This document shows, piece by piece, positions 3,001 through 20,784 of a DNA stretch of 64,000 nt. The stretch is from Chryseobacterium taklimakanense (lineage in GTDB: Bacteria > Bacteroidota > Bacteroidia > Flavobacteriales > Weeksellaceae), in the NCBI RefSeq assembly GCF_900187185.1, contig NZ_LT906465.1, forward strand, positions 186,001-250,000, written 5' to 3'. A program made the position numbers and the translations under genes. Every line of letters starts with the position of its first letter. Position 1 is the first letter of the stretch. The notes under the pieces are model-generated. The model had not been told where the DNA came from and searched no databases. It saw only the letters and a program-made list of their open reading frames with translations.

Positions 3001-4707
3001 ATTAATCGTCTGCAAATGAAATCGGTTCAAGGGTTTACCCTAAATGCCATTGAAAATACTGAAGGTTACCTTTCCGGAAATTTCGACATCACGGGGAAAA
3101 CCGAAAGTCCGAAAATATTAGGGAAGTTGAAATTCAATGATGTTGGTTTAGAAATTGTGAAAACGGGAAGCAATTTCAGACATCTTGATGATGAGATAAG
3201 ATTCGCACCGAGAGGAATTGTGTTTGATGATTTTAAAGTGAAGGATTCACAAGGAAATGCATTGACTTTTGATGGCGACATTTTAACCCAAAATTATCAG
3301 GATTTCGCTTTCGATTTAAAACTGCGGGCAAGAGATTTCATGGCGGTAGATTCTCAGCCGGATAATGATAAAATGATGTTCGGAATCTTGGCAGTGGATG
3401 CCGATCTTGGTATTACCGGAAATTTGGATTTGCCACAGGTTGATGGTAAATTAGCAGTCACCGACAAAACCGATTTTACCTTTGTGATTCCTCAAACATC
3501 ACCTACTTTAAAAGATCGAGAAGGTATTGTGGAATTTATCGATCAGGACCAAATTGTCCTCAATAAAACCATAAAAGCCGACAGCATCGATGCGAAAACC
3601 GGCATCAAAGGAATGGATGTTAATGTGAATATTTCTTTAACCAAAGAAGCTAAAATTTCATTATTGATCGATAAAGCCAGCGGAGATTTCGTGAAACTTC
3701 AAGGGGAAGCAGAATTGACGGGAGGTGTGGATCCATCGGGAAAAACTACACTGGTAGGCGTTTATCAGGTAGAAAGTGGGGCGTATGAAATGTCTTTTAA
3801 CATGATTAAAAGAAAATTCGATATCCAAAAGGGTAGTACCATCACCTGGACCGGCGAACCAACCACCGCAAACCTGGATCTTACTGCGATTTACAAAACA
3901 AATGCAGCGCCAATTGATTTGGTGCAGCAGCAACTTTCCGAAGATCAGCTGAATTATTATAAACAGAGAATTCCTTTCAATACTTTATTGGTTTTAAAAG
4001 GAGAATTGCTGAAACCGGTGATTTCTTTTGATATTAAAACGGACGAAAATAACAACGCGGTTAATCAGGAAGTTATCGATAATGTTGAAACTAAGCTGAC
4101 CCAGCTCCGTCGCGATGAATCGGAGCTCAACAAACAGGTTTTTGCACTGTTGATTTTGAATCGTTTCATTGGCGATAATCCGTTCCAAAGCCAAAGCGGA
4201 ATTTCTGCCGGTACGATGGCGAGACAGAGTGTGAGCCAAATCTTGTCCCAGCAACTCAATAATATTGCACAGGATTTAATAGCTGGTGTAGATTTGACCT
4301 TCGATTTTGATAGTTATGAAGAATATTCTTCGGGAAATAAAAATACAAGAACTGATTTGAATGTTAATTTAAGTAAGAAACTATTAAATGATCGCTTGAA
4401 GATCACCGTTGGAAGCAATTTCGGCATCGAAGGAGAAGCGCGACAAAACGAAGAAATGACCAATATTGCGGGTAATATTACTGCAGATTACGCTTTATCG
4501 AAAGATGGCAGATATACCCTCCGCGCATATCAGAAAAATCAGTATCAAGTAGCTTTGCAAGGCCAAATTATCGAAACTGGAGTTGGGTTTGTTATCACTT
4601 TAGATTATACTGATTTCAAAGATATTTTCCAAAGAGCGAAACAAAACCGTGAGATCAGACGAACCAAAAAAGCATTGCAGAAAAATAGCGCAGTTGAATT
4701 CAAATAA
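1..4707 (+). CDS. tamB: TamB-like translocation/assembly module protein (5' partial)
   Basis: The reading frame is open from the first base of the window, so the N-terminus lies outside; 1568 residues are visible. The protein is a long run of short beta-rich repeats of the AsmA/TamB type, and the last ~400 residues match the DUF490/TamB C-terminal domain (for example GVYQVESGAYEM followed by IKRKFDIQKGSTITW and the ALLILNRF segment). In this family an N-terminal anchor sits in the inner membrane and a hydrophobic groove spans the periplasm towards the outer membrane; roles in outer-membrane protein assembly and phospholipid transport are reported. The next gene starts directly after the stop codon and encodes the outer-membrane partner, so the two are surely co-transcribed. 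An internal GTG at 43 is a possible but unlikely start because the upstream frame also reads like AsmA sequence. Confidence 0.9.
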   Translation, partial: LKNTVDLTSIDLDGVKANVVRNKNGSFNFDYFIDAFARKDSQESESKPFVISLDKIKLQNINVSFIDNQARNDINLKFKYFDTRVKTFDLDRNSYAVGNIVLDGLKLKLKQDLLEEVAETVDEKADSLRAKKPMKLALNGIKFTNFNVDYGDDNSKTYAKILFNELNTKINKLDIENQSYEVDQFLLKGANIDAKMFSAPQKEVTNSDLPSPAEKSIDLLLGKAILDDVKVSYNNTAMPKKSRGMDFNHLDFSQINFDLRDFKMQNGTFTGTVKKAEIKEKNNLEVRKFNTDFVYGEKQAYLKNLYLETSRTVLRDEIVLNYNSIEQLSANPGAVSISANIYSSKIGLADLLNFAPDLRNTPPFNTYPNGTINLDARIKGTMNEMQIANLQASGLGDLKLALSGVVRNATDPNKLFYDLKIRNLGSSAKTILKILPKNTLPSNISLPSYFAISGVARGTTKVVDTKLKMVSTLGNVVLNALVDMRRKNAETYAVNANLANLQIGKIIQNKDLGIVRGTLSAKGRSFNFKNGNLDFKGNLAAFDYQNYRYQNVGLSGKLNSGKYNIHLLSHDPNANLNLLASGKLSDKNSSVKLGGTITKLDLYKLGFYQDPLILAGNIDGEFTNLNPDFLNGYLNLDQFAISDTKEVFPIQEMRLKAETTANSNALYFNSQVADFTMTGKYKLSQIFGALQNTVSNYYDLGKKKQRIDPHQYFDFTATLKDDDLIRKFVPELKSFETITMNGNYNADSQNINVDAQIPNLKYGENLIENASFKVSNDNDALQYQLQAQKISSEKLALNQFAATGNVANNLITYRVSTKDEKNVEQFLIAGSAQSLKNATQISLYPDGLKLNYTNWNVAPDNVLRFGNNGIFARNFLLSNGESSLAINSENENANSPLNVDLKNFKIETITEMLKKDSLLAKGTIDGNVRLKDYKNLNFTSDLNVTDLVMYGNPIGNIAAKVNTKTAKLLYADVALSGFENDVKITGDYNIESQLLDLEAEINRLQMKSVQGFTLNAIENTEGYLSGNFDITGKTESPKILGKLKFNDVGLEIVKTGSNFRHLDDEIRFAPRGIVFDDFKVKDSQGNALTFDGDILTQNYQDFAFDLKLRARDFMAVDSQPDNDKMMFGILAVDADLGITGNLDLPQVDGKLAVTDKTDFTFVIPQTSPTLKDREGIVEFIDQDQIVLNKTIKADSIDAKTGIKGMDVNVNISLTKEAKISLLIDKASGDFVKLQGEAELTGGVDPSGKTTLVGVYQVESGAYEMSFNMIKRKFDIQKGSTITWTGEPTTANLDLTAIYKTNAAPIDLVQQQLSEDQLNYYKQRIPFNTLLVLKGELLKPVISFDIKTDENNNAVNQEVIDNVETKLTQLRRDESELNKQVFALLILNRFIGDNPFQSQSGISAGTMARQSVSQILSQQLNNIAQDLIAGVDLTFDFDSYEEYSSGNKNTRTDLNVNLSKKLLNDRLKITVGSNFGIEGEARQNEEMTNIAGNITADYALSKDGRYTLRAYQKNQYQVALQGQIIETGVGFVITLDYTDFKDIFQRAKQNREIRRTKKALQKNSAVEFK

Positions 4708-4710
4708 TTG

Positions 4711-7059
4711 ATGATGAAATTTATGGGAAATACAATTCAGTTTAAAAATATTAAAATAGCTACAGGTTTTTCTGTCGCAGCACTTCTTTTTTCATGCGGT
4801 ACCGAAAGATTACAACCCAACGAAAAACTTTACACTGGAGCGAAAATTAATATCATTAATGACACGATTTCCAAGAAAGAAAAATCTTCATTAAAAGACG
4901 GTTTGGAGGATAATCTTACCCCAAAACCCAATTCTTCAATTTTGGGTTTGCGACCGCGTGTTTGGATTTACAATATTACCCCGGAGCCCAAAAAAGACAA
5001 AGGAATTACCAATTGGCTGAAAAATAAAGTGGGGCAGAAACCTGTTCTTTTGGGCGATGTAGACCGGGAATTTAACAGAGATATAATTGAAAACTACTCT
5101 GAAAATAAAGGGTATTTCAATGCGAAAGCACAGTACGATACTATTATCAATGGGAAAACTGCAAAAGTAGTTTATGATGTGAAAACCGGCGCAAGATATC
5201 TCATCAGCGATGTGAAATTCCCGGAAGATAGCACCAAGATTAACCGTGAAATTCAATTGGTAAAAGATCAAACATTACTGAAAAAGGGGAAACCTTTCGA
5301 CCTCGATGTCATCAAAGCTGAGCGTGAGAGAATTGATAATCGGATGAAGGAAAATGGTTTTTATTACTTTCATCCGGATAATATCATTGTTCAAGCCGAC
5401 AGTACCGTTACCAACAAGCCGGAGGTCGAACTTGCTGTAAAATTGAAAGAAGAAACGCCAGAATTGGCCAAAAAGCAATTCAGCATCAATAATGTAATTG
5501 TCTATGCCGATTACAACTTACGCGATGTGAAAGAAAATGTATATAAAATCCCTGCAAATATAGATTCCATAGAAGCTTACAAGGATTTTTATTATGTTGA
5601 TCCCAAGAAAAAATTTCGTCCGGTCATGTTTGAAAGGGCGCTATATTTCAGAAAAGGCGACATCTACAATCGTGCGGACCATAATTTGACTTTGAACCGA
5701 TTGATCAGTCTTGGAGTTTTCAAATTCGTAAAAAATGAATTCGTAATTTCTGATAGTTTAAAAAATAAATTTGATGCCTATTACTTGCTGACTCCTAAGG
5801 AATTTCAGTCTTTAAGAGTGGAAGCTTTGGGTAAAACCAATTCGGCAAATTATGCAGGTTCAGAGATCAATCTCAATTGGACCCATCGAAATATTTTCCG
5901 AGGTGCGGAGCAATTGAAGGCATCTGTTTTCGGTTCTTTTGATATGCAGATGGGTGGGAGATCTTCCGCTTACGAACGGGGGGAAGGCAATATCTATCGA
6001 GCGGGCGCAAATGTTCAATTGTCTGTTCCAAGATTGTTAACACCTTTTAATTTTCAATCCTCAAGCGCATTTGTGCCGCGTACCAATGCCGAAATAGGTT
6101 ATGAATATGTAAGCCGTAGCAAATGGTACACTTTGCACAATTTCAATGCGTCGTTTGGATATATGTGGAAAGAAAATATCCGAAAGGAACATGAATTGAA
6201 ATTGCTAGATGTTACCTTGGTAACACCTGAAAATGTGACGGAAGTTTACCAAAATTATATTCAGGACAAACCATATTTGCAGCAGGCAATTCAGAAGCAA
6301 TTAATTTACGGGCCTACTTATTCTTACACCTATACCAATACGATGTTGCCTAAAACCAACACGATGTACTATCGCGGTTACGTTGATTTGGCGGGAAATC
6401 TCACAGGCTTAATCTCAGGAGCTAATGCTAAAGAAGGCAAAGAAAAGCAGATTTTTGGGGTGCCTTTCAGTCAGTATGCCAAAATGGAAAACGATTTTAG
6501 ATTTTACCATCAACTTTCCACTAAACAAAGTGTTGCCGCGCGAGTAATTGCTGGAATTGCGTATCCGTACGGAAATTCGCTCACGGTTCCATTTTCCCGA
6601 CAATTTTTTTCCGGAGGTAGCAATAGTATTCGCGCATTTCGGGCGAGAACTTTAGGTCCTGGTAGTTATGATCCGCGGACGCAAACCGGCCAATTGTTTT
6701 TCGATCAAGCCGGCGACATTAAGTTGGAAACCAATCTGGAATATCGCGCGAATATTTATAAATTCTTGAATGTAGGTGTTTTTGCAGATGCAGGAAATGT
6801 TTGGCTGGTCAATGAAGATGCAACGCGCCCAGGAGCGAAATTTTCCAAAGATTGGCTGAGCGAAATGGCGGTAGGAGCGGGCGTTGGACTGCGTTTGGAT
6901 TTTTCTATTCTGCTTCTTCGACTAGATTTGGCAATGCCGTTGCGGGTACCTTACTACGAGAAAAATGATCGTTGGATGTTCGATAAAATCGATTTTGGGA
7001 ATAAAGATTGGCGTCGACAAAATTTAATTTTGAATATTGCGATTGGTTATCCTTTTTAA
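4711..7059 (+). CDS. tamL: TamL, BamA/TamA-family outer-membrane lipoprotein
   Basis: A protein of about 782 residues: an N-terminal signal with lipobox-like LLFSCG near residue 28, POTRA-like region roughly residues 100-370, then a 16-strand-type Omp85 barrel ending in a terminal phenylalanine (IAIGYPF). The conserved barrel motif FFSGGSNSIRAFRART (near residue 630) is the Omp85 (V/I)RG(F/Y)-type signature. Bacteroidota carry a lipidated TamA variant called TamL beside tamB, and both the lipobox and the position fit. The start is uncertain: ATG at 4711, 4714 or 4723 all sit within 20 bases of the tamB stop; the last gives the most typical lipoprotein signal. Expected role: outer-membrane half of the translocation/assembly module. 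Confidence 0.88.
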   Translation: MMKFMGNTIQFKNIKIATGFSVAALLFSCGTERLQPNEKLYTGAKINIINDTISKKEKSSLKDGLEDNLTPKPNSSILGLRPRVWIYNITPEPKKDKGITNWLKNKVGQKPVLLGDVDREFNRDIIENYSENKGYFNAKAQYDTIINGKTAKVVYDVKTGARYLISDVKFPEDSTKINREIQLVKDQTLLKKGKPFDLDVIKAERERIDNRMKENGFYYFHPDNIIVQADSTVTNKPEVELAVKLKEETPELAKKQFSINNVIVYADYNLRDVKENVYKIPANIDSIEAYKDFYYVDPKKKFRPVMFERALYFRKGDIYNRADHNLTLNRLISLGVFKFVKNEFVISDSLKNKFDAYYLLTPKEFQSLRVEALGKTNSANYAGSEINLNWTHRNIFRGAEQLKASVFGSFDMQMGGRSSAYERGEGNIYRAGANVQLSVPRLLTPFNFQSSSAFVPRTNAEIGYEYVSRSKWYTLHNFNASFGYMWKENIRKEHELKLLDVTLVTPENVTEVYQNYIQDKPYLQQAIQKQLIYGPTYSYTYTNTMLPKTNTMYYRGYVDLAGNLTGLISGANAKEGKEKQIFGVPFSQYAKMENDFRFYHQLSTKQSVAARVIAGIAYPYGNSLTVPFSRQFFSGGSNSIRAFRARTLGPGSYDPRTQTGQLFFDQAGDIKLETNLEYRANIYKFLNVGVFADAGNVWLVNEDATRPGAKFSKDWLSEMAVGAGVGLRLDFSILLLRLDLAMPLRVPYYEKNDRWMFDKIDFGNKDWRRQNLILNIAIGYPF

Positions 7060-12328: not shown

Positions 12329-13094
12329 ACCTGTTGTGCATTTAGCACAAATTAATTTTTAACTTATTCAAACTTCTCTTGAAGACGAAAAAATTTAGAT
12401 ATTGAATCATGGTAAAAGAAGTTATTTTTGATACTATTCTTGTTGCCAAACCTTAAAAGGTTTTTGCGAGGTTAATATTTATTAAGAACTGTCCGCACAG
12501 TTGCGAAATATTGGTTTGTTCATGATTTATTTTTTTTCAATGGTATTCACGATTGCTTCGCAGTTCAATCCTCTTTCTGATTTTTGATTTTGTCTTGGAA
12601 AATTCCACAAAATCATGCTGGTTTTTACGCATTGGAACCGAAAGATTTATCTTGGAATAGTTGAATAAATCCAGTTGGAGTTCTTTGCTGATGTACCCTC
12701 TGTCACCGATTAATAAACAGTTTTCAAAATTCTCCTTAATGTCGTGCAGATAGTTCACGTCGTGAACGTTTGCAGGGGAAAAATCAAACGAGTGGAAGAT
12801 TCCATTTTTGTCACAAACCACATGAAGTTTATAGCCAAAATACCTGGATTTTTGTGCGGCACAATATCCATATGCAGGTTTGATCTCATCCGTGGAACAG
12901 ATTGCAGAACGATTTGCCCGACTTATTTTACAGATTTCAATTGGCGTGGAATCCACAATAAAGACATCGGTGAAATCCGAAAACCTGCTGCTCAAGGTTT
13001 CTCTGATTTTTTCAATGTAGGGAAAAAGTTTTCTTTTCCTTTTATTGTAGACACTCCTTTCAATTCTTCCCTCCAAATCAGTCCCTGAAATGTA
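12329..13094. mobile_element. IS982-family insertion sequence, right part deleted (copy 2)
   Basis: The left terminal repeat ACCTGTTGTGCATTTAG is intact at 12329-12345 and the sequence then follows copy 1 (7073-7839) almost base for base, in the same orientation. Homology stops after CTGAAATGTA at 13094; about 265 bp that carry the other terminal repeat and the transposase N-terminus are missing. The next base belongs to a truncated epimerase gene, so the junction marks a deletion that removed both IS end and epimerase end. Confidence 0.9.
12342..13094 (-). pseudogene. IS982-family transposase fragment (copy 2)
   Basis: The minus strand encodes the transposase from YISGTDLEGRIERSVYN onward. 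As in copy 1, the stretch RKRIE is followed by the extra sequence LRSNREYH and a TGA stop at about 12537; the inserted segment is 48 bases here (one base fewer than copy 1), so the conserved tail ISQLCGQF continues in the same frame after the stop. The N-terminal ~60 codons are gone with the deleted IS end. The open frame continues leftward from the epimerase across the junction only by chance. Confidence 0.85.
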
Positions 13095-13708
13095 AAATCG
13101 TCCACATGGATCCACGGAAAATATTGCTTACCGCTGCCAACAGGTGAAGCAAGATGAAGATTGGTTAATTTTTTTAAAGGTTCCAGAAATCCACCATGGG
13201 CGGAAATTACAGGAGAAATTCTAAGTTTTACAATTCTTTCCGAAATTGCTTCGAACCGGTTTGCGGATTCTTCCAACAAGCCACAAACTTCCGTAAGAAA
13301 ATCTTTTTTTTGCGGTTCATCATTTTCCGTAGCAGCTTTTTCATCGTTCCAGTCACCGTAATAATTAATTCCTGAAGCCGAAATAAATGACTGTAGTATA
13401 ATATTTTTTTCTTTTACCTTTTTCTCTAAAAACAGGGCAGAATCCACGCGAGAATTGATGATTTCCTTCTTGTATGCCGTAGTCCACCGTTTCGCAATTG
13501 TTGCGCCCGCCAAGTGGATGATGCTGTGAATACCTTCCATAGCACCTTCTTCCAAATAGTGATTTTCATAATCCCAGACGAATTCATGCTCGAAAATATT
13601 TTGTTTTTTCCTCACCAGGCAATGTGCAATATAACCTCTTTCCTTAAGCGCAGAATACAATTTTTTCCCGACCATTCCGCTAGCTCCCGTGATTAAAATT
13701 TTTTTCAT
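13095..13708 (-). pseudogene. TIGR01777/SDR39U1-family epimerase, C-terminus deleted
   Basis: Starts at ATG 13708 with the Rossmann motif ITGASGMVGKKL, continues with IIHLAGATIAKRW, SASGINYYG and YFPWIHVDDF, all diagnostic for the TIGR01777 group of NAD(P)-dependent nucleotide-sugar-epimerase-like proteins. About 205 residues are native; normal members are about 300, so roughly 90 C-terminal residues, including the DUF1731 region, are lost at the IS junction. The frame reads on into the IS fragment and would make a 238-residue chimera ending at 12992. The gene follows the MarR gene by 26 bases on the same strand. Relatives often sit near SRPBCC, photolyase and carotenoid genes. Confidence 0.85.
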
Positions 13709-13734: not shown

Positions 13735-14379
13735 TTAGATTAAATTATTAATTTCCGTAATGTCAGAATCTTTGTATTGGTGATAGACATTAAAATGAAA
13801 TTCGTTTAATTTTCTTAATGTTTTAAGTAAATTATTCTTTTCATCACTATCTAATTTTGCAGATAAAACTCTGGAAGTGATGCTTACAGATTCAACGGAT
13901 TGATGAAAATACTGTTTGCCAAGTTCGGAAATTTTCAATCGGGTTACCCGCTTATCTTTGCTGTCCGAAATTTCCACCAGAAGGTTGTTTTTTACTAATC
14001 TTCTGATGATTTCAATTCCTGTCTGTTTTTCATGCGCGTTCTTTTCTACCAGTTGCATTTTGGTTAGCAAGGGTTCGTCCATAATTCTGTAGAGGTAGGT
14101 GAACTCTTCATTGTATAATTCCGGAAAATCTTGCAGACCTCTGCGAATCATCTGTTTTGTAAAACGAGACAACAGGATCACTTGCTTGGCAATTTCATTT
14201 TCTAAATCGTTGACCTTCTTTTGCTCACTCTCCGAGATAAAGCGTGGACTTTGACTTTTGTAAAATTTGTCATTTAAAAAATTACGAAAATCCTCAATGG
14301 TGGAATCGTTTTTAGAGCTTCCGGAATTTTCAAATTCTTGAACTTCTAAAAGTAAATTGATAAAAAAATTGGTATTCAT
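13735..14379 (-). CDS. MarR-family transcriptional regulator
   Basis: A 214-residue protein. The central part, about residues 85-160, carries a MarR-type winged helix: LTKMQLVEKNAHEKQTGIEIIRRL as the helix-turn-helix region and a wing with DSKDKRVTRLKISELGKQYF, where the D-x-R-x-x-x-L pattern is the MarR signature. The first ~80 residues are an extra helical stretch. It is transcribed away from the crt operon, after the remnants of a flavin reductase and a TetR-like gene and before the truncated epimerase. It may bind the palindrome at 14721-14748, but this is inference. Confidence 0.82.
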   Translation of the reverse strand: MNTNFFINLLLEVQEFENSGSSKNDSTIEDFRNFLNDKFYKSQSPRFISESEQKKVNDLENEIAKQVILLSRFTKQMIRRGLQDFPELYNEEFTYLYRIMDEPLLTKMQLVEKNAHEKQTGIEIIRRLVKNNLLVEISDSKDKRVTRLKISELGKQYFHQSVESVSITSRVLSAKLDSDEKNNLLKTLRKLNEFHFNVYHQYKDSDITEINNLI

Positions 14380-14381
14380 GA

Positions 14382-14558
14382 TTAAGAGATTAAAAATAGA
14401 GGTTCTGAATTTGGTTTTGCATAAGACAATTTCGCAATTTTTTCCGGTACAAAATACGTAACTAATCCGTAATTCATCAGTGTGTTTTCTAGGTTTACAA
14501 ATCCGTCTTTCTCTAAACGGGAAGGCTTAACAACCAGATGTTGGATTTCGCCGATGAC
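14382..14558 (-). pseudogene. Flavin reductase-like C-terminal remnant
   Basis: On the minus strand a frame without start reads VIGEIQHLVVKPSRLEKDG, FVNLENTLMNYGLVTYFVPEK and ends at a TAA at 14382-14384, two bases before the MarR start. The IGEIQ-plus-DGFVNL pattern resembles the last ~60 residues of flavin reductase family proteins (PF01613). The N-terminal two thirds are absent: just upstream lies the TetR-like head in the same frame with two stop codons between. I take this as a deletion scar. Family assignment is tentative. Confidence 0.55.
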
Positions 14559-14567
14559 TTATCCATG

Positions 14568-14705
14568 TTATTTATAAAACTCTTGCTCTGTGGTGTTTAA
14601 ATCTTTAGTAAATAGGTAAATATTTTTTGGACGCTCGCCATGAATCAAAATATAGTCGGAATAAGCTTCGATAATGCTGTCTTTTGTGATTGTTTGTGTT
14701 TTCAT
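14568..14705 (-). pseudogene. TetR/COQ9-like regulator, only the N-terminal 45 codons left
   Basis: Begins at ATG 14705 and reads MKTQTITKDSIIEAYSDYIL, then IHGERPKNIYLFTKDLNTTEQEFYK, then TAA. The pattern of a short helix, (V/I)Y.F.K, and a T-x-x-x-FY ending is the DNA-binding head of the TetR-like regulators found in Flavobacteriia. Intact members continue with HF(G/A)SFE and about 150 further residues. All of that is missing. The gene is divergent from crtI and its start is 16 bases from a perfect palindrome, as expected of a self-regulating local repressor that has now been lost. Confidence 0.6.
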
Positions 14706-14720
14706 TTTATATGTGATTTA

Positions 14721-14748
14721 TATATTTGTAAAATATTTTACAAATATA
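14721..14748. promoter_or_regulatory. 28-bp perfect palindrome in the divergent crt/tetR-remnant promoter region
   Basis: Half-site TATATTTGTAAAAT followed directly by its exact reverse complement. Both halves contain TATATTTG, a perfect Bacteroidota -7 box (TAnnTTTG), one on each strand, so the palindrome can carry overlapping divergent promoters and be an operator for a dimeric regulator. It lies between the TetR-like remnant (minus) and crtI (plus, 37 bases away). Confidence 0.7.
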
Positions 14749-14760
14749 AAAATAAAAGTA

Positions 14761-14768
14761 TATATTTG
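14761..14768 (+). promoter_or_regulatory. Likely -7 box of the crt operon promoter
   Basis: TATATTTG, matching TAnnTTTG, ends 16 bases before the crtI start codon at 14785. The palindrome ends 12 bases upstream of it, so a bound dimer would cover the upstream promoter region. A second TATATTTG inside the palindrome (14721-14728) is an alternative. Confidence 0.55.
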
Positions 14769-14784
14769 GACAATTATTTTACTC

Positions 14785-16248
14785 ATGAAAAAAGCTATAA
14801 TTATTGGGTCCGGTTTTTCATCATTATCTGCGGCGTGCTACCTCGGAAAAGCGGGACTTCATGTAACCGTTTTGGAAAAAAATGAACAGCTGGGAGGAAG
14901 GGCTTCCATGATGGAGATTGATGGATTCAAGTTCGATATGGGACCGAGTTGGTATTGGATGCCTGATGTTTTCGAACGTTTTTTTGCTGATTTTGGAAAA
15001 AGCGTAGCGGAATATTATACGCTTGAAAAACTTTCTCCGGCATACCGAGTGGTTTTTGGTAAAAATGATTTCATTGATATAGAGGATACACCAGAAAAAA
15101 TTATCCAAACTTTTGAAAGTATTGAAAAAGGTTCTGGAAAGCATCTGAAAAAATTCATGAGTGAATCGCAAGAGAATTATGATATCGCTATGAAGGATTT
15201 GGTTTATCAGCCGGGGCTTTCAGTAACGGAATTGGTATCGTGGGAAACAGCAAAGCGACTAGGTCTCTTCGTAAAAAATATCAGTCAGCAAATCCGAAAA
15301 AATATAAAAAATCCAAAGCTGAGAAGCATTTTGGAATTTCCCGCCCTGTTTTTGGGTGCTAAACCCAAAGATACACCAGCCTTTTATAATTTTATGAATT
15401 ATGCAGACTTTGGTTTGGGAACCTGGTATCCGAAAGGCGGTTTTAATGCCGTTGCTTTAGGGATGGTGAAGCTGGCCAAGGAATTAGGTGTGGATTTCAA
15501 GACCAATGCTGCGGTGCAGTCTATACAGACAGAAAATGGTAAGGTAGTGAGTGTTTCTACGGAAAATGAAACCTTCGCTGCCGATGTTTTTGTATCGGGA
15601 GCGGATTATGCCCACACTGAAAATTTACTGCAGAATAACAGAAACTACAGCGAAGAATATTGGAAAAAGAAAACTTTTGCGCCCAGTTCGCTGCTTTATT
15701 ATGCTGCTTTTGATAAGAAGGTTGAAAGTTTGGAACATCATAATCTATTTTTTGACACCGATTTTGAACAGCACGCTGAGGAAATTTACGACACGATGAC
15801 ATTCCCGAAAGCTCCGTTGTTCTACGCTAATTTTTCCAGCAAAACCGACAGCTCCCTTTGTCCGGAAGGTAAAGAAATTGGATTTTTCCTTATTCCGACT
15901 GCAGTGGATTTAGAAGATTCGGAAGAGATCCATGAGTATTACTTTAATTTAATCTTAGATAGGATTAAGGATTCAACCGGGGAAGATCTGAGGCCGAAGA
16001 TTTTATTCAAAAAAAGTTTTGGAACCCAAGATTTCAAAAATCGCTATAATTCTTGTCGGGGAAACGCTTATGGTTTAGCAAATACATTAATGCAAACATC
16101 TGTTCTTAGACCCTCCATAAGAAATAAAAAATTAGATAATTTCTTTTATACAGGCCAATTAACCGTTCCTGGTCCTGGGGTGCCGCCCGCATTAATTTCC
16201 GGAAAGGTGGTAAGTGAATACATTTTAAGCAAAGGAAAATTTAATTAA
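14785..16248 (+). CDS. crtI: Phytoene desaturase (CrtI)
   Basis: A 487-residue FAD-dependent desaturase. The Rossmann dinucleotide motif GSGFSSLSAA starts at residue 7, and the C-terminal family motif GQLTVPGPGVPPALISG closes the protein. CrtI converts phytoene to lycopene at the membrane. The start is set at ATG 14785 because family members begin with KKAIIIGSG; a longer frame upstream (to 14674) crosses the promoter and palindrome and is not credible. First gene of a six-gene operon: crtB follows after 14 bases. The dead TetR-like gene upstream suggests that its original local control has changed. Confidence 0.95.
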   Translation: MKKAIIIGSGFSSLSAACYLGKAGLHVTVLEKNEQLGGRASMMEIDGFKFDMGPSWYWMPDVFERFFADFGKSVAEYYTLEKLSPAYRVVFGKNDFIDIEDTPEKIIQTFESIEKGSGKHLKKFMSESQENYDIAMKDLVYQPGLSVTELVSWETAKRLGLFVKNISQQIRKNIKNPKLRSILEFPALFLGAKPKDTPAFYNFMNYADFGLGTWYPKGGFNAVALGMVKLAKELGVDFKTNAAVQSIQTENGKVVSVSTENETFAADVFVSGADYAHTENLLQNNRNYSEEYWKKKTFAPSSLLYYAAFDKKVESLEHHNLFFDTDFEQHAEEIYDTMTFPKAPLFYANFSSKTDSSLCPEGKEIGFFLIPTAVDLEDSEEIHEYYFNLILDRIKDSTGEDLRPKILFKKSFGTQDFKNRYNSCRGNAYGLANTLMQTSVLRPSIRNKKLDNFFYTGQLTVPGPGVPPALISGKVVSEYILSKGKFN

Positions 16249-16262
16249 TAAAGAAGATCATT

Positions 16263-17108
16263 ATGAATAATTTTCAAAAATTCAATAAAATTTCAGATTG
16301 TACTTCTCAGTTGGTAACCAAACAGTACAGCACTTCTTTTTACTGGGCCTCTTCGTTATTCAGTCGGGACATTCGTCAGCATATTTATAATATTTATGGC
16401 TTCGTACGGTTTGCTGATGAAATAGTGGATACCTTTCATGACTATAATAAGCAGAAATTGCTTAATGAGTTCGAACGAAATTACAGAGAAACTTTAGAAA
16501 ACGGAATTTCACTTAATCCTGTGATTCAGTCATTCTGCAGAACTCAAAAAGAAAATAATATTCCACAGGATTTGGTAGATGCATTTCTATATTCCATGAA
16601 AATGGATTTAGGCGAGATTAAAGATTTAAATGATGAATTGTATAATCTCTACATTTATGGAAGTGCAGAAGTGGTGGGATTAATGTGTTTAAAAGTCTTT
16701 GTGAAAACGAAAGAGGACTACGAAAAATTGAGACCTTATGCACAAAATCTTGGTGCAGCTTTTCAAAAAATCAATTTTCTTCGGGATATTTCCGCTGATT
16801 ACAACGATTTGAATCGCACCTATTTCCCCAATGTGAATTTTCTGGAATTTTCAGAAAGAGAAAAAACAGAAATAGAGTTAAATATTAAGAGCGATTTTGA
16901 AAAGGCGCTAATCGGGATCAAGATGCTTCCTTTATCAAGCAGAAGTGCAGTTTTTATGGCGTATAAGTATTACCTCAGTCTATTCAAAAAGATCAAAAAA
17001 CAGCGGGCAGAACACCTTATGAAAAGTAGAATCCGTGTTTCTAACGCAAGGAAAATTTATCTGATGGGAGAGATGCTTTTAACTAAGAATTTATATTTTA
17101 TTCGATGA
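16263..17108 (+). CDS. crtB: Phytoene synthase (CrtB)
   Basis: A 281-residue squalene/phytoene synthase. The two aspartate-rich motifs are DEIVD at residues 52-56 and LRDISADYNDLNRTYFP near residues 172-188. These bind the magnesium-diphosphate of geranylgeranyl diphosphate during head-to-head condensation to phytoene. AAGAAG 9 bases before ATG is a plausible ribosome site, unusual for this phylum. The last four bases overlap the next gene. No geranylgeranyl diphosphate synthase lies in the operon; the polyprenyl synthase at 32142 is too far to be part of it. Confidence 0.95.
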   Translation: MNNFQKFNKISDCTSQLVTKQYSTSFYWASSLFSRDIRQHIYNIYGFVRFADEIVDTFHDYNKQKLLNEFERNYRETLENGISLNPVIQSFCRTQKENNIPQDLVDAFLYSMKMDLGEIKDLNDELYNLYIYGSAEVVGLMCLKVFVKTKEDYEKLRPYAQNLGAAFQKINFLRDISADYNDLNRTYFPNVNFLEFSEREKTEIELNIKSDFEKALIGIKMLPLSSRSAVFMAYKYYLSLFKKIKKQRAEHLMKSRIRVSNARKIYLMGEMLLTKNLYFIR

Positions 17109-17560
17109 AATTTTTGGTCATAATATTTACGCTGATGTGCCATATTATTTTTGCTCAAAACCTTAAAGAGCTGAGAAGTTATTTAATTAAAGGTGAAAAA
17201 ACTTCAGTTGCAGCAATACAATTGATGGAAAAGTCTGAGGCGCTTTTTAAACAAAATAAATTGCCTATCTATCAGGGTTTTTACAGTGTCGGACAATTTT
17301 TCATGGCCAAGCACGCTGCCAATCCTTTTAAAAAATTATCCTATTTTAATGAAGGAAGAAAAAGCCTAAATCATGCAATTAATAGCGATTCGAAAAATTT
17401 GGAATTGAGATTGTTCAGACTGATGATCCAAGAACAGGCACCAGCTTTTCTGAATTATACCGATAATATTAAAGAAGATCGGTCATTTATCCTGAAAAAG
17501 TATGAAAATGAAACGGACGAAGATTTGAAGATTTTCATTAAAAAATATTTAAAAAAATGA
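17105..17560 (+). CDS. Unknown secreted protein in the crt operon
   Basis: A 151-residue protein with an N-terminal signal peptide (FLVIIFTLMCHIIFAQ, cleavage after about residue 17), then a mainly helical, lysine-rich domain with no cysteine in the mature part and no motif I recognise. Segments such as SEALFKQNKLPIYQGFYSVG and SKNLELRLFRLMIQEQAP suggest TPR-like helical hairpins, but this is weak. It overlaps crtB by 4 bases and crtZ by 4 bases, so it is translationally locked into carotenoid synthesis. A periplasmic or envelope role beside carotenoid enzymes is likely, but the function is not known to me. Confidence 0.8.
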   Translation: MKFLVIIFTLMCHIIFAQNLKELRSYLIKGEKTSVAAIQLMEKSEALFKQNKLPIYQGFYSVGQFFMAKHAANPFKKLSYFNEGRKSLNHAINSDSKNLELRLFRLMIQEQAPAFLNYTDNIKEDRSFILKKYENETDEDLKIFIKKYLKK

Positions 17561-18024
17561 TTCTACTATATTTGGCAATAACAGTGGCTACTTTTGTAGC
17601 AATGGAAGGCATTACATGGCTGACGCACAAATACATCATGCATGGATTTCTCGGCTGGTATTTTCACGAAGATCATCACCAACCTGGCTATCCACACGTT
17701 TTCGAGAAGAACGATTTTTTCTTTGTGGTTTTTGCTATCCCTTGTATGATTTTGTTTTATCTCGGCACTGTGGAAGGGATTACATGGTTAGCGTTTTTAG
17801 CAGCGGGAGTTTTACTCTACGGAATTTGCTATTTTTTGGTGCATGATGTACTGATACACCGAAGATTTAAATGGTTTGATAAAGTGGACCATTGGTACTT
17901 CAGAGCGTTGAGAAAAGGACATAAAATTCACCACAAACATTTAGGAAAAGAGGATGGCGAGTGTTTTGGAATGCTGTACGTTCCCAAAAAATATTTTATT
18001 GAAGCCAGAAAAATGCGTAAATAG
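17557..18024 (+). CDS. crtZ: Beta-carotene hydroxylase (CrtZ)
   Basis: A 155-residue membrane di-iron hydroxylase of the fatty acid hydroxylase superfamily. The histidine motifs are HKYIMHG near residue 24, HEDHH near 37, HDVLIHRR near 103 and HKIHHKH near 125. About four hydrophobic helices lie between them. It hydroxylates both beta-ionone rings of beta-carotene, giving zeaxanthin, the usual yellow pigment of this group. It overlaps the unknown secreted gene upstream by 4 bases. Confidence 0.92.
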   Translation: MILLYLAITVATFVAMEGITWLTHKYIMHGFLGWYFHEDHHQPGYPHVFEKNDFFFVVFAIPCMILFYLGTVEGITWLAFLAAGVLLYGICYFLVHDVLIHRRFKWFDKVDHWYFRALRKGHKIHHKHLGKEDGECFGMLYVPKKYFIEARKMRK

Positions 18025-18086
18025 TTGATTAATAATTTTTTGTTGGACTTTTTACCTTAATGATTAACGGTGAACTAACCATTATT

Positions 18087-18821
18087 ATGGAGAAATATTA
18101 CTACATTCTTTTGAATATCGCGACATTTTCAGTGCCGTTTTTTTTTAGTTTTGAAAAGAAGTGGATGCATTTTGCGCGATTTTGGAAACCCTATTTTCTG
18201 GCAATTATCAGCGTTGGGTTATTCTTTATTATTTGGGACGTCTTCTTTGCATATTCCGATATTTGGGGATTCAACGATCAGTACTTATTAGGATTTAGAA
18301 TTTTGAAATTGCCTGTAGAGGAATGGCTGTTCTTTCTTCTAATTCCTTATTCCAGTAATTTTATCCATTACTCACTGGAATATTTCTTTCCAAGATTACA
18401 GTTAAGTAAAATAACTACTCAGATCATCAGCATCGCGCTACTAATTATTTCATTGGGAGTTGTGCTGGGTAATTATGATCGATTGTACACATTGTGCAGT
18501 TTCGGTTTATTTGCCTTGCTCATGTTGGCTCAAATCATCTGTCAGTGGAAATATGCCCGACGTTTTTATCTAAGTTTTATCCTGATTTACATGCCATTTT
18601 ATTTTGTAAATGGCGCTTTGACGGGAAGTTATTCGGCAAATCCCGTAGTTTATTACGATAATGCGGAAAATCTGGGAATTCGTGTGGGAACCATGCCACT
18701 GGAAGATTCTTTCTATTGTTTTTCGATGCTTTATAGCAGCGTATTGCTTTTTGAATTTTTGAAGAAAAAAATGAATTTAGATCAACCGATTAGAATCAGT
18801 CATGGACATAAAAATAACTAA
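18087..18821 (+). CDS. Lycopene cyclase, CrtYcd type
   Basis: A 244-residue integral membrane protein with about seven hydrophobic helices in two repeated halves. Each half has the conserved acidic proline motif of the heterodimeric/fused lycopene cyclase family: LPVEEWLFF and MPLEDSFYCF. It closes the ends of lycopene into beta rings before CrtZ acts. ATG 18087 is preferred to the longer in-frame start at 18060 because the first family helix begins right after it. The 3' end overlaps the SRPBCC gene by 20 bases. Confidence 0.88.
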   Translation: MEKYYYILLNIATFSVPFFFSFEKKWMHFARFWKPYFLAIISVGLFFIIWDVFFAYSDIWGFNDQYLLGFRILKLPVEEWLFFLLIPYSSNFIHYSLEYFFPRLQLSKITTQIISIALLIISLGVVLGNYDRLYTLCSFGLFALLMLAQIICQWKYARRFYLSFILIYMPFYFVNGALTGSYSANPVVYYDNAENLGIRVGTMPLEDSFYCFSMLYSSVLLFEFLKKKMNLDQPIRISHGHKNN

Positions 18822-19296
18822 ACAATCCGGCATTTATACCTTAACTTCTAGACAGGTTTTGCCAATGCCCCTGGAAAAAGCATGGGCATTTTTCTCTTTG
18901 CCGCAAAATTTAGACAAAATTACCCCAGATGATATGGCGTTTTCCATCACCAATAATCCACCAAATTATACCTATCAGGGACAAATCATTGCCTATAAAA
19001 TAGGAGTTTTTCCTTTGGTTAAAAATAATTGGGTAACGGAAATTACGCACCTGAAAGAAGGCGAGTTTTTTGTCGACGAACAACGTTTCGGGCCTTATGC
19101 GATGTGGCACCACGAACACCATTTTGAAGAACTGCAAGATGGAAAAGTTCTCATGACGGACATTGTAAATTTCAAATTGCCGATGGGATTTGTTGGCGAT
19201 TTGGTTGCAGGATTTTTTGTGAAAAACAAAGTGAGAAAAATCTTTGAAAGTAGATTCAGAATTTTGGGAGATTTATTTCCTGGTCTCAGTTCGTAA
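18802..19296 (+). CDS. SRPBCC (START-like) family protein at the end of the crt operon
   Basis: A 164-residue protein with the SRPBCC/cell-division-inhibitor-like pattern: MPLEKAWAFFSLPQNLDKITP near the N-terminus, a beta-rich centre with RFGPYAMWHHEHHFEE and a C-terminal long helix FFVKNKVRKIFESRF. The fold forms a hydrophobic pocket. Its family is often paired with TIGR01777 epimerases; here a truncated one lies across the divergent side of the locus. A role in binding a carotenoid or precursor is inference. It overlaps the cyclase gene by 20 bases. Confidence 0.82.
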   Translation: MDIKITKQSGIYTLTSRQVLPMPLEKAWAFFSLPQNLDKITPDDMAFSITNNPPNYTYQGQIIAYKIGVFPLVKNNWVTEITHLKEGEFFVDEQRFGPYAMWHHEHHFEELQDGKVLMTDIVNFKLPMGFVGDLVAGFFVKNKVRKIFESRFRILGDLFPGLSS

Positions 19297-19359
19297 GCGT
19301 CGGCAGTACCATCATGTACGGTTATATAATAATCGTGGGCATATCAGGCATTGTCCCAA

Positions 19360-19634
19360 TATTTAAAAGTAGTTCCCATTTTCAGAAGGGTTATGTGAAG
19401 ATTTATCTTACCAAAGAACAATAGCCGGTTCTCACTTTGATGACGCTCAAAAAACTCGAAGAAGAATTGCCCAAAAACAATTTCATGCGGGTACATCGTT
19501 CCTACATCGTCGCTTTGGATAAGATTGAACAGATCGAACGTAATCAGTTGATTATCAATAATCAAAGAATCAATATTTCCGAAGCGTACCCCGATCATTT
19601 CCGTAAATTTATGGATGCTCATCAGTTTTTGTAA
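19360..19634 (+). pseudogene. LytTR-family response regulator, broken remnant of the DNA-binding domain
   Basis: The frame reads IFKSSSHFQK, then jumps directly to GYVKIYLTKEQ, a TAG stop at 19422-19424, then LTLMTLKKLEEELPKNNFMR and VHRSYIVALDKIEQIERNQL, and ends at 19634. The order is that of a LytTR domain (VHRSYIV is its hallmark), but the receiver domain is missing, about a dozen residues have been lost between the first two pieces, and a nonsense codon interrupts it. The rest of 19297-19767 shows no other gene. Confidence 0.75.
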
Positions 19635-19737
19635 CCAGCATTTTCAAAGTTTTTATCATTAAAATCTGCCATTTTTTTGAATGAAATGTTTGCTGTGGAA
19701 ATTTCCATGGAAACTTTCGCGCTGCTGCCTTTTAGAA

Positions 19738-19745
19738 TATCTTTG
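19738..19745 (+). promoter_or_regulatory. -7 promoter box for the nucleoid-associated protein gene
   Basis: TATCTTTG, a perfect TAnnTTTG match, 22 bases before the ATG at 19768. No clear TTG box at the expected distance. Confidence 0.5.
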
Positions 19746-19767
19746 CAACTTTATTTAAAATTTAAAA

Positions 19768-20784
19768 ATGCTCTCAAAAATTATCGTTCATAAAGTAGGA
19801 AACAGAATCAATCAGGAATCTTTAATCCTTTCCCAGGAAGAATTGCAACTGGAGGAAGACATGAAAGAACTGCTCGAAGATTTCTTCCTGAAAGCCTTCA
19901 AATCAGAGGAACAGTTTTGTTTTTACAGCGACACTTATTTGGTTAATAATCCGGTGTACAGCTCAGTTTCCGAGATTTTTGAAGACCAAAACAAATTCGT
20001 TTACGAAGCGGAAAATATTGCGCAACATCTGTATGATATCACCGAAAATCCGCGCGTGCAAAGCGGCGAACTCTTCATCGTTTATTTCGAAGGGGAAGAA
20101 AATGCCGACGGAAACAGGATCGATTCTATAGGGATTTTCAAAACCGAAAATAAAAATCCTTTCCTGAAAATTTTCCCTCAGAATGAAACTTTTGAAATTG
20201 AAAAAGATTACGGCATCGGGCTTTCAAAGCTGGATAAAGGCGCATTGATCTACAACAGCAGCAAAGAGACGGGTTATGCCGTTTCGGTGGTGGATAACAA
20301 CAAAAACGGCGATATGTACTACTGGTTCGAGGATTTCTTGAAAGTAAAACAGCGCGACGACGAATATTTTCAAACCCAGGAAACGCTCACGGTGTACAAA
20401 GAATATATCACCAAGCAACTTCCCCAGGAATTTGAAACCACCAAAGCCGACCAGGCCGATTTTCTGAACAAATCCATCAGTTTTTTCAAAGAAAAAGAAA
20501 CCTTTGATTATGATGAATTTACCAGGGAAGTTTTGGAAGATCCTAATGTTATCGAGAGTTTCAGTAACTTCAAATCCGATTATGAACAGGAAATGCAGGT
20601 TTCAATTGCCGAAGATTTTGCCATCAATGAGGCAGCGGTGAAGAAGCAAAGCCGGGGTTTCAAAAGTGTCATCAAACTGGATAAAAACTTCCATATCTAC
20701 GTTCACGGCGACCGGAAACTCATCGAAACCGGACAGGATGAGAAAGGGAAATATTACAGGCTCTATTTCGAGAAAGAACAGTAA
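19768..20784 (+). CDS. Nucleoid-associated protein (NdpA/YejK family)
   Basis: A 338-residue acidic protein matching the 37-kDa nucleoid-associated protein family: it opens with IIVHKVGNRINQESL, has GIGLSKLDKGALIYN in the middle and ends with FKSVIKLDKNFHIYVHGDR. The role in chromosome organisation is known only broadly from enterobacterial YejK. Start agrees with the family. Stands alone, with its own promoter box and a shared terminator downstream. Confidence 0.85.
   Translation: MLSKIIVHKVGNRINQESLILSQEELQLEEDMKELLEDFFLKAFKSEEQFCFYSDTYLVNNPVYSSVSEIFEDQNKFVYEAENIAQHLYDITENPRVQSGELFIVYFEGEENADGNRIDSIGIFKTENKNPFLKIFPQNETFEIEKDYGIGLSKLDKGALIYNSSKETGYAVSVVDNNKNGDMYYWFEDFLKVKQRDDEYFQTQETLTVYKEYITKQLPQEFETTKADQADFLNKSISFFKEKETFDYDEFTREVLEDPNVIESFSNFKSDYEQEMQVSIAEDFAINEAAVKKQSRGFKSVIKLDKNFHIYVHGDRKLIETGQDEKGKYYRLYFEKEQ

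Follow-up and report, generated by a model that had tools for sequence, protein, structure and literature searches.

Light-induced carotenogenesis in non-phototrophic bacteria can be governed by LitR/CarH, B12-dependent regulators of the MerR family. In Corynebacterium glutamicum, the MarR-family regulator CrtR (195 aa, winged helix at residues 73-134) represses the crt genes and its own gene (PMC5401885, PMC6739363). Its footprint of 52 bp covers both promoters and is longer than one MarR site. These papers give TTAA as the essential motif and GGPP as an effector in vitro; one paper describes two inverted repeats in the region, the other none at the footprint (PMC5401885, PMC6739363).

Within Bacteroidota, Chryseobacterium lacus is described as producing carotenoids under induction by light, with no car or lit operon (PMC7064467). 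Given the lack of car/lit genes, its authors considered a possibly new light-induced regulator and guessed at two other genes of the cluster; the main text makes no mention of MarR or TetR. Among the titles and abstract openings listed from an open-access library, we found no MarR- or TetR-type regulator of a Bacteroidota crt operon. Here we describe the front of a crt operon in a 64-kb stretch of DNA (the window; 39.6% G+C), which occupies positions 186001-250000 of a host genome made up of a single contig of 2,764,880 bases.

A deletion at the front of the crt operon

The crt operon is read rightward and faces a leftward row of genes and gene remnants:

12992-13708, minus strand: TIGR01777-type oxidoreductase gene, shortened, its end overlapped by a transposase gene
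13735-14379, minus strand: marR, 214 aa, intact, the first complete gene behind the former tetR promoter
14388-14558, minus strand: C-terminus remnant of a flavin-reductase-like gene, left by the deletion
14571-14705, minus strand: remnant of a TetR-like gene (TetR_C_23 family), codons 1-45, divergent from crtI
14785-16248, plus strand: crtI, phytoene desaturase family
16263-17108, plus strand: crtB, phytoene synthase family
17105-17560, plus strand: hypothetical protein of the crt operon
17557-18024, plus strand: presumed crtZ-like hydroxylase gene, named from its position and from what we take to be the family motif; no Pfam match above cut-off
18084-18821, plus strand: lycopene cyclase gene (CarR domain)
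18802-19296, plus strand: presumably an SRPBCC-like gene (Polyketide_cyc match below cut-off), the last of the operon here

The divergent TetR-like gene is a remnant. The initial annotation had credited it with 45 codons, and these are what we find. The remnant region matches residues 1-48 of a relative's intact 217-aa protein at 94%, and the C-terminal part of that protein matches Pfam TetR_C_23 (E 8e-29). Two close relatives, G171 (locus L147) and G186 (L150), keep the full order of crtI, a divergent tetR-like gene (217 aa, TetR_C_23), an ABC1 kinase gene, a DUF2805 gene, a flavin reductase gene, marR and an oxidoreductase gene. The alignment of the window with L147 breaks off at position 6111, within tetR, and is taken up again at 3418, close to where the flavin-reductase gene ends. 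The deletion of about 2.7 kb comprises the rest of tetR, the ABC1 kinase and DUF2805 genes, and most of the flavin-reductase gene. Its junction is common to the window, G162 and G159, and G184 has a different one. An intact divergent TetR-like gene did once lie here, as had been supposed: it is kept in two of six close loci (the window, G162, G171, G186, G184 and G159) and stands next to crtI in 23 of the 50 best loci described below.

Both ends of the locus show further changes. A DDE transposase gene (12537-13115) overlaps the end of the TIGR01777 oxidoreductase gene (12992-13708), whose product has 238 aa in the window and 300 aa in L147, with similarity ending at residue 206. At the other end, a DNA photolyase gene follows the SRPBCC-like gene in G159, G162, G171 and G186. 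It has no tblastn match in the window, where its place is 19297-19768, and was not seen in the G184 stretch either.

The surviving marR product is recognized by MarR-type winged-helix profiles. HTH_27 matches just above its cut-off (E 1.1e-4), MarR_2 (8.5e-4) and MarR (0.022) fall below theirs, and the best PDB sequence match is a MarR regulator (E 2.9e-6). On these matches, we assign the protein to the MarR family as a predicted member. A low-confidence structure model built from two sequences (mean pLDDT 52) shows the order helix-helix-helix-strand-strand.

A perfect palindrome between divergent promoters

The following elements lie in and beside the intergenic region:

14721-14748, unstranded: perfect 28-bp palindrome, TATATTTGTAAAAT/ATTTTACAAATATA, identical to its own reverse complement, at the crt operon front
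14721-14728, plus strand: -7-like box in the left palindrome arm, in the window copy only (1/6 close loci)
14728-14741, unstranded: O1, the palindrome core, GTAAAATATTTTAC (GTA-N8-TAC), proposed upstream MarR site from the comparison of locus classes
14748-14741, minus strand: -7-like box in the right palindrome arm, TATATTTG on the minus strand, kept in 6/6 close loci
14758-14771, unstranded: O2, GTATATATTTGGAC, proposed second MarR site 30 bp downstream of O1, 5/6 letters
14761-14768, plus strand: likely crtI promoter -7 box, TATATTTG, outside the palindrome

The palindrome at 14721-14748 is indeed perfect over 28 bp, as first annotated, and it is the sole even palindrome of at least 16 bp in the 64-kb window. 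Simulated sequences of the same length (20 Markov-1 and 20 Markov-3) held on average 2.1 and 1.6 palindromes of at least 16 bp and 0.15 and 0.10 of at least 20 bp, respectively; none of the 40 held one of at least 24 bp. The 20-bp core has one mismatch-free copy in the 2.76-Mb genome and five further places with 2-3 mismatches, making six places against three for a reversed control pattern.

Of the promoter boxes that had been placed in both arms, the one in the right arm is kept in all six close loci. It probably served the former tetR operon as its promoter, and today it leads into marR. The left-arm box occurs in the window alone (1/6). We considered the left arm as the crtI promoter and ruled it out, because its box is confined to the window copy and because TAnnTTTG, the -7 box consensus, lies nearer crtI in 43 of 44 loci. 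That consensus is found at most 60 bp upstream of crtI in 23/23, 4/4, 12/12 and 4/5 loci of the four locus classes defined below. Thus, the crtI -7 box is more likely the one at 14761-14768, outside the palindrome.

Half-sites are kept while the palindrome varies

Among the six close loci, the palindrome is 24 bp long in G162 and G171 and mutated in G186, G184 and G159. A single T-to-A change lengthens the 24-bp form to the 28 bp of the window. O1 reads GTAAAATATTTTAC in the window, G162 and G171, GTAAAATATTGTAC in G186, GTAAACTATTTTAC in G184 and GTAAAAGATTATAC in G159. These changes are confined to the central 8 bp of the site, and the half-sites GTA and TAC are intact in all six loci, even where the rest of the palindrome has decayed. 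They are also kept in the window, G159 and G184, whose genomes show tetR-like remnants only. The palindrome is thus present at intact crt loci of relatives (24 bp in G171, mutated in G186), as would be expected from the initial annotation. Its argument that perfect conservation implies a binder needs recasting: the perfection is not conserved, the palindrome being mutated in G186, G184 and G159 and the allele perhaps recently exchanged with G162, while the GTA...TAC half-sites (6/6) carry the argument in a stronger form.

The deletion allele may have moved between lineages recently. The stretch 14380-14784, which is non-coding and pseudogene sequence, is 98.8% identical to G162 and 90.6% identical to G159. 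It is closer to G162 than are the eight flanking genes compared, seven of which are 92.0-95.6% identical and the eighth 97.6%, and this suggests a recent exchange. In a CrtI tree the three deletion-sharing loci are not grouped, with support there of only 80-83.

Paired sites across locus classes

Loci of the host family fall into distinct classes. A CrtI match was found in 205 of the 296 genomes sampled from this family, and the best 50 matches define our crt loci. A tetR-like gene adjoins crtI in 23, is a remnant in 4 and is separated from crtI by another gene in 6; marR lies next to crtI with no linked tetR-like gene in 12; and 5 have neither gene (one of them, L145, ends at the contig end). 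The 6 loci with an intervening gene were not scored as crt promoters, and 5 of them enter a set of 28 tetR-like loci that face other genes. In many relatives, the TetR-like homologue gene faces a GTP cyclohydrolase II gene rather than crtI, with a similar site between. All 23 crt loci with an adjacent tetR-like gene have marR on the same contig and strand, 2-4 kb away. Among the 12 genomes with marR adjacent to crtI, a TetR-like match (E 1e-10) is absent from eleven, and the other has an unlinked copy (L124, genome G168).

On the CrtI tree (49 rows, L143 being too short), the linked tetR state changes at least 7 times, 3 of these forced by strongly supported branches. In three supported independent tree pairs, the site pair is unchanged in 2.5 and changes in the same direction in 0.5 on average. 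Across 246 genomes of the host order, the MarR has a match at E 1e-30 in 18, all in the host family, and a TetR_C_23 TetR-like protein has one in 54 at E 1e-30; that both counts refer to the same 246 genomes is judged from equal size and handles.

We scored a promoter as carrying the pair when two GTA-N8-TAC-like sites lay exactly 30 bp apart with at least 10 of 12 letters, a motif defined after the sequences had been seen. The pair is present in 23/23 crt loci with linked TetR-like and MarR genes, in 27/28 tetR-like loci facing other genes (MarR in the genome) and in 4/4 tetR-remnant loci, the window included, or in 54 of 55 related loci with both genes or a tetR remnant. These counts are not independent events, because many loci are close kin. 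Where crt loci have MarR and no linked TetR-like gene, the pair is found in 7/12 at 10 letters and 12/12 at 9 letters; L118, L124 and L129 are near-copies, and the 12 loci hold 10 distinct 100-bp upstream sequences. A column profile of these 12 loci shows half-sites more conserved than the centre.

The control promoters lack the pair at 10 letters. Among tetR-like promoters with no MarR gene linked to them, none of 25 rows (24 distinct) has it at either 9 or 10 letters. These comprise 21 rows (20 distinct, L009 and L285 being one locus) from other families and four MarR-unlinked promoters of the host family, among which L293 does have a marR gene 8 kb off, on its own contig and strand. In named crt promoters whose examined flanks contain neither gene, the pair is present in 0/79 at 10 letters and 4/79 at 9; these loci are mostly from Flavobacteriaceae, and their collection has no crt locus closer than 63% identity. 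Shuffled sequences give 4-8% at 9 letters and 0-1% at 10.

A set of 18 MarR-bearing loci comprises the 12 MarR-adjacent crt loci and L231, L232, L234, L235, L297 and L016 (the last with TetR status judged from flanks only). At the two thresholds the pair is present in 16/18 and 9/18 of these against 0/25 (Fisher p 6e-10 and 9e-5, kinship ignored). Not counted in the set were L236, where a TetR-like gene is adjacent; L237 and L143, whose genomes carry one elsewhere; L292 and L293; and extra MarR copies in TetR-bearing genomes (L238, L240, L241). The near-identical L231 and L232, from genomes that keep marR and have no TetR-like match, carry the pair upstream of ribA with 11/12 letters. L234 and L235, also from genomes without a TetR-like match and with marR facing another gene, have an exact GTA-N8-TAC. 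The TetR-like gene, marR and crtI are dispersed in G033; there, marR and crtI are each preceded by a site-like stretch (9/12 letters each), and the tetR-like gene by none.

Some MarR loci depart from this distribution. The pair is absent by score at L297 (G117), L236 (G087) and L016 (a 45% MarR, divergent from crtI), and by eye at L292, L293 and the extra MarR copies in L238, L240 and L241. G085 has the pair at crtI, yet only a 28% MarR paralogue.

The half-sites AGTAA and TTTTC are both kept in 20/21 TetR-linked and 7/13 TetR-less loci (Mann-Whitney p 2e-4, kinship ignored, with the consensus taken from TetR-linked loci). We also trained a PWM on tetR-like loci with a divergent neighbour other than crtI (20 distinct sites); it scored above all 20 shuffles in 22/23 TetR-linked, 10/12 MarR-adjacent, 2/4 remnant and 2/5 neither-gene crt loci, and in 3/80 named crt loci. 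Scans of 11 whole genomes for the exact pair gave 29 matches, fewer than the reversed control (49), and 3 against 4 in the host genome (G000). The crt locus was matched in 6/6 close genomes. A second palindrome, TTATCATTGATAA, lies about 80-90 bp upstream of crtI in L118, L124 and L129 (tetR-like gene unlinked); a similar one was seen by eye in L108, L109 and L111.

Single sites recur in the promoters of MarR paralogues (24-30% identity; 20 of 28 listed were examined). Exact GTA-N8-TAC occurs upstream of 13/20: when the paralogues are placed by their coordinates, 8/10 of those directly before crtI, 0/3 of those elsewhere and 5/7 of those unplaced. A pair with at least 11 letters at 28-33 bp is found in 7/20, and the 30-bp rule holds in 1/20.

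One relative may connect such a site with light. Genome G024 is probably that of a C. lacus strain, with the same crt gene row as far as the genes are named. In it, a MarR-type gene (MarR_2 at cut-off) lies directly before crtI, followed by crtB. An exact GTATTATATTATAC (GTA-N8-TAC) lies upstream of marR, without a 30-bp pair (9/12 letters). After crtB, three frames fit by size and look the hypothetical, crtZ and lycopene cyclase genes of the published light-induced cluster (PMC7064467). Thus, a concrete protein and DNA site can be named as candidates for light-induced carotenogenesis.

The TetR-like protein and its own promoters

The TetR-like protein lacks a recognizable canonical DNA-binding domain. 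Pfam TetR_N does not match one intact TetR-like protein at E up to 1, and the only PDB sequence match, to an unrelated enzyme, has E 0.78. Canonical TetR recognition helices are neutral or basic. The stretch expected to form this helix carries, in 88/88 TetR-like orthologues, an unvarying Glu placed three residues ahead of Phe-Tyr (near residue 43), and its net charge is -1 to -3. Judged from sequence, the protein does not appear to have the canonical N-terminal domain of TetR, and these TetR_C_23 proteins may depart from the usual way of reading DNA.

In other families, tetR-like promoters carry a different inverted repeat, GTTTAA-N8..24-TTAAAC, found in 16/21 rows (L009, L273, L275-L290 and others). 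It was found in 0/67 host-family loci for which the pair was counted. The repeat is a possible operator of the TetR-like protein or of another factor; because of it, the TetR-like protein may bind DNA by itself after all.

Candidate binders of the crt palindrome

The crt palindrome is a real feature, probably a regulator site and as such ordinary in kind, with an unexpected owner. We consider it likely, from sequence comparison, that its core O1 and the downstream O2 form a tandem operator through which the neighbouring MarR-type regulator acts as repressor of both crt and its own operon. What we observe is the anatomy of the locus, the deletion, where the sites occur and how far apart, and which relatives have them. 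The occurrence of the pair by locus class shifts the explanation to MarR and away from TetR. The MarR protein that survived, already offered as an alternative controller by the initial annotation, is thus the best-supported candidate.

In this arrangement, MarR (13735-14379) would occupy O1 (14728-14741) and O2 (14758-14771), whose centres are separated by 30 bp, or some three turns of the helix. O2 sits over the likely crtI -7 box, and O1 borders on the leftward operon's -7-like box and shares one base with it, so that occupation of both sites by MarR would repress crt as well as marR. We infer binding, repression and autoregulation at O1 and O2; a weaker suggestion is that light, photo-oxidative stress or an isoprenoid provides the signal. 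The leftward operon once read tetR-like, ABC1 kinase, DUF2805, flavin reductase, marR and oxidoreductase. The deletion of about 2.7 kb took most of tetR and the next three genes, leaving a stump of the last, and brought marR directly behind the old promoter. The operator would have been kept because its own protein, MarR, survived. Several points weigh against the MarR operator. O2, with 5/6 letters, overlaps a promoter box whose conservation is expected in any case, and drift to GGA...TTC would have to be assumed at the MarR loci without a pair. G085 has the pair with only a MarR paralogue, the promoters of the paralogues rarely follow the 30-bp rule (1/20), the whole-genome scans for the exact pair stayed below their reversed control, and the structure model of MarR has low confidence.

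The initial annotation had raised the TetR-like protein as the possible repressor; the palindrome would then be the operator of a lost repressor, now a relic, with crt constitutive or otherwise controlled. We regard this as unlikely. The TetR-like gene is divergent and adjacent in 23/50 best crt loci with the site between the genes, and in G159, which lacks an intact TetR-like gene, decay has reached the outer palindrome. Loci with the gene linked keep their half-sites better, a pattern that loss of a TetR-like binder would fit too. The PWM from non-crtI tetR-like loci finds the site at crt loci (22/23 above all 20 shuffles), and it was this that first suggested a TetR operator, an idea dropped after the tetR-like promoters without MarR were read. 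A TetR operator should recur wherever the TetR-like gene occurs. However, the pair is in 0/25 rows (24 distinct) of tetR-like promoters without linked MarR, and those in other families carry GTTTAA-N8..24-TTAAAC instead (16/21 rows, against 0/67 host-family loci). The pair often persists without the TetR-like gene: a TetR-like match is absent altogether from 11 of the 12 MarR-adjacent genomes, and all 12 loci keep at least 9/12 letters. The expected recognition helix, moreover, is acidic in 88/88 proteins, with no Pfam TetR_N or PDB sequence match.

It is quite unlikely that the site has no specific binder. AT-rich promoter sequence lying back to back would then have been kept through common descent, and the palindrome would be perfect in the window owing to one chance substitution and recent exchange with the G162 lineage. 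Such an origin would account for the right-arm -7 box in 6/6 close loci, the one substitution that turns 24 into 28 bp, the 98.8% identity of 14380-14784 to G162 against 92.0-97.6% for eight flanking genes, and the separation in the CrtI tree of three loci with a common deletion (support only 80-83). It fits poorly with the higher conservation of half-sites than of the centre at the 12 MarR-adjacent loci, with the single sites in MarR paralogue promoters, and with the recurrence of GTA/TAC and the 30-bp spacing upstream of ribA, though the tetR-side flank there may share descent. A joint action of both proteins at the relatives' promoter, with MarR binding DNA and the TetR-like protein as its partner or antagonist, overlaps the MarR operator reading and is, taken by itself, decidedly unlikely. 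In its favour, each of the 23 crt loci where a tetR-like gene is adjacent has marR close by (2-4 kb, same contig and strand), and the helix region is acidic in 88/88 TetR-like proteins. Against it, the distinct repeat before tetR-like genes in other families may mean self-sufficient DNA binding, and repeated loss of the TetR-like gene with MarR kept shows that this gene is dispensable.

With MarR as the preferred owner of the operator, the crt locus shows a regulator gene deleted while its neighbour's operator stays. A broader proposal is tentative and somewhat unlikely. The MarR clade could be the missing light or stress regulator of carotenogenesis in Bacteroidota without LitR/CarH, acting through two in-phase GTA-N8-TAC sites. 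In relatives, it would control a photo-protection block of ancestral origin (crt, GTP cyclohydrolase II, photolyase and photolyase-related genes, DUF2805, ABC1 kinase and an NAD(P)-binding oxidoreductase), and the linked acidic-helix TetR-like protein would be a partner or antagonist of MarR, not a repressor at the site. If this is true, repeated TetR-like loss would retune pigment control with the operator untouched.

Comparison with known systems

The deleted gene of the window is one of the TetR_C_23 proteins that are encoded with ABC1 kinases. In other families, such systems have their own promoters with the different repeat (16/21) and no GTA-N8-TAC pair, unlike the window. The locus also differs from LitR/CarH systems, whose regulators have MerR-type and B12-binding domains; here, the regulator gene at the crt locus itself is of MarR type.

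CrtR appears to be the closest described case for the proposed MarR operator (PMC5401885, PMC6739363). It belongs to another phylum and has the motif TTAA, whereas the window has two GTA-N8-TAC-like sites 30 bp apart, and the likeness is one of description. CrtR has 195 aa with the winged helix at 73-134; the MarR of the window has 214 aa with its profile match at about 92-154. The CrtR footprint of 52 bp compares with a span of 44 bp from O1 to O2. As with CrtR, a MarR-type gene is divergent from the crt operon in the window, and in the two close relatives with an intact locus it is found towards the end of a divergent gene row.
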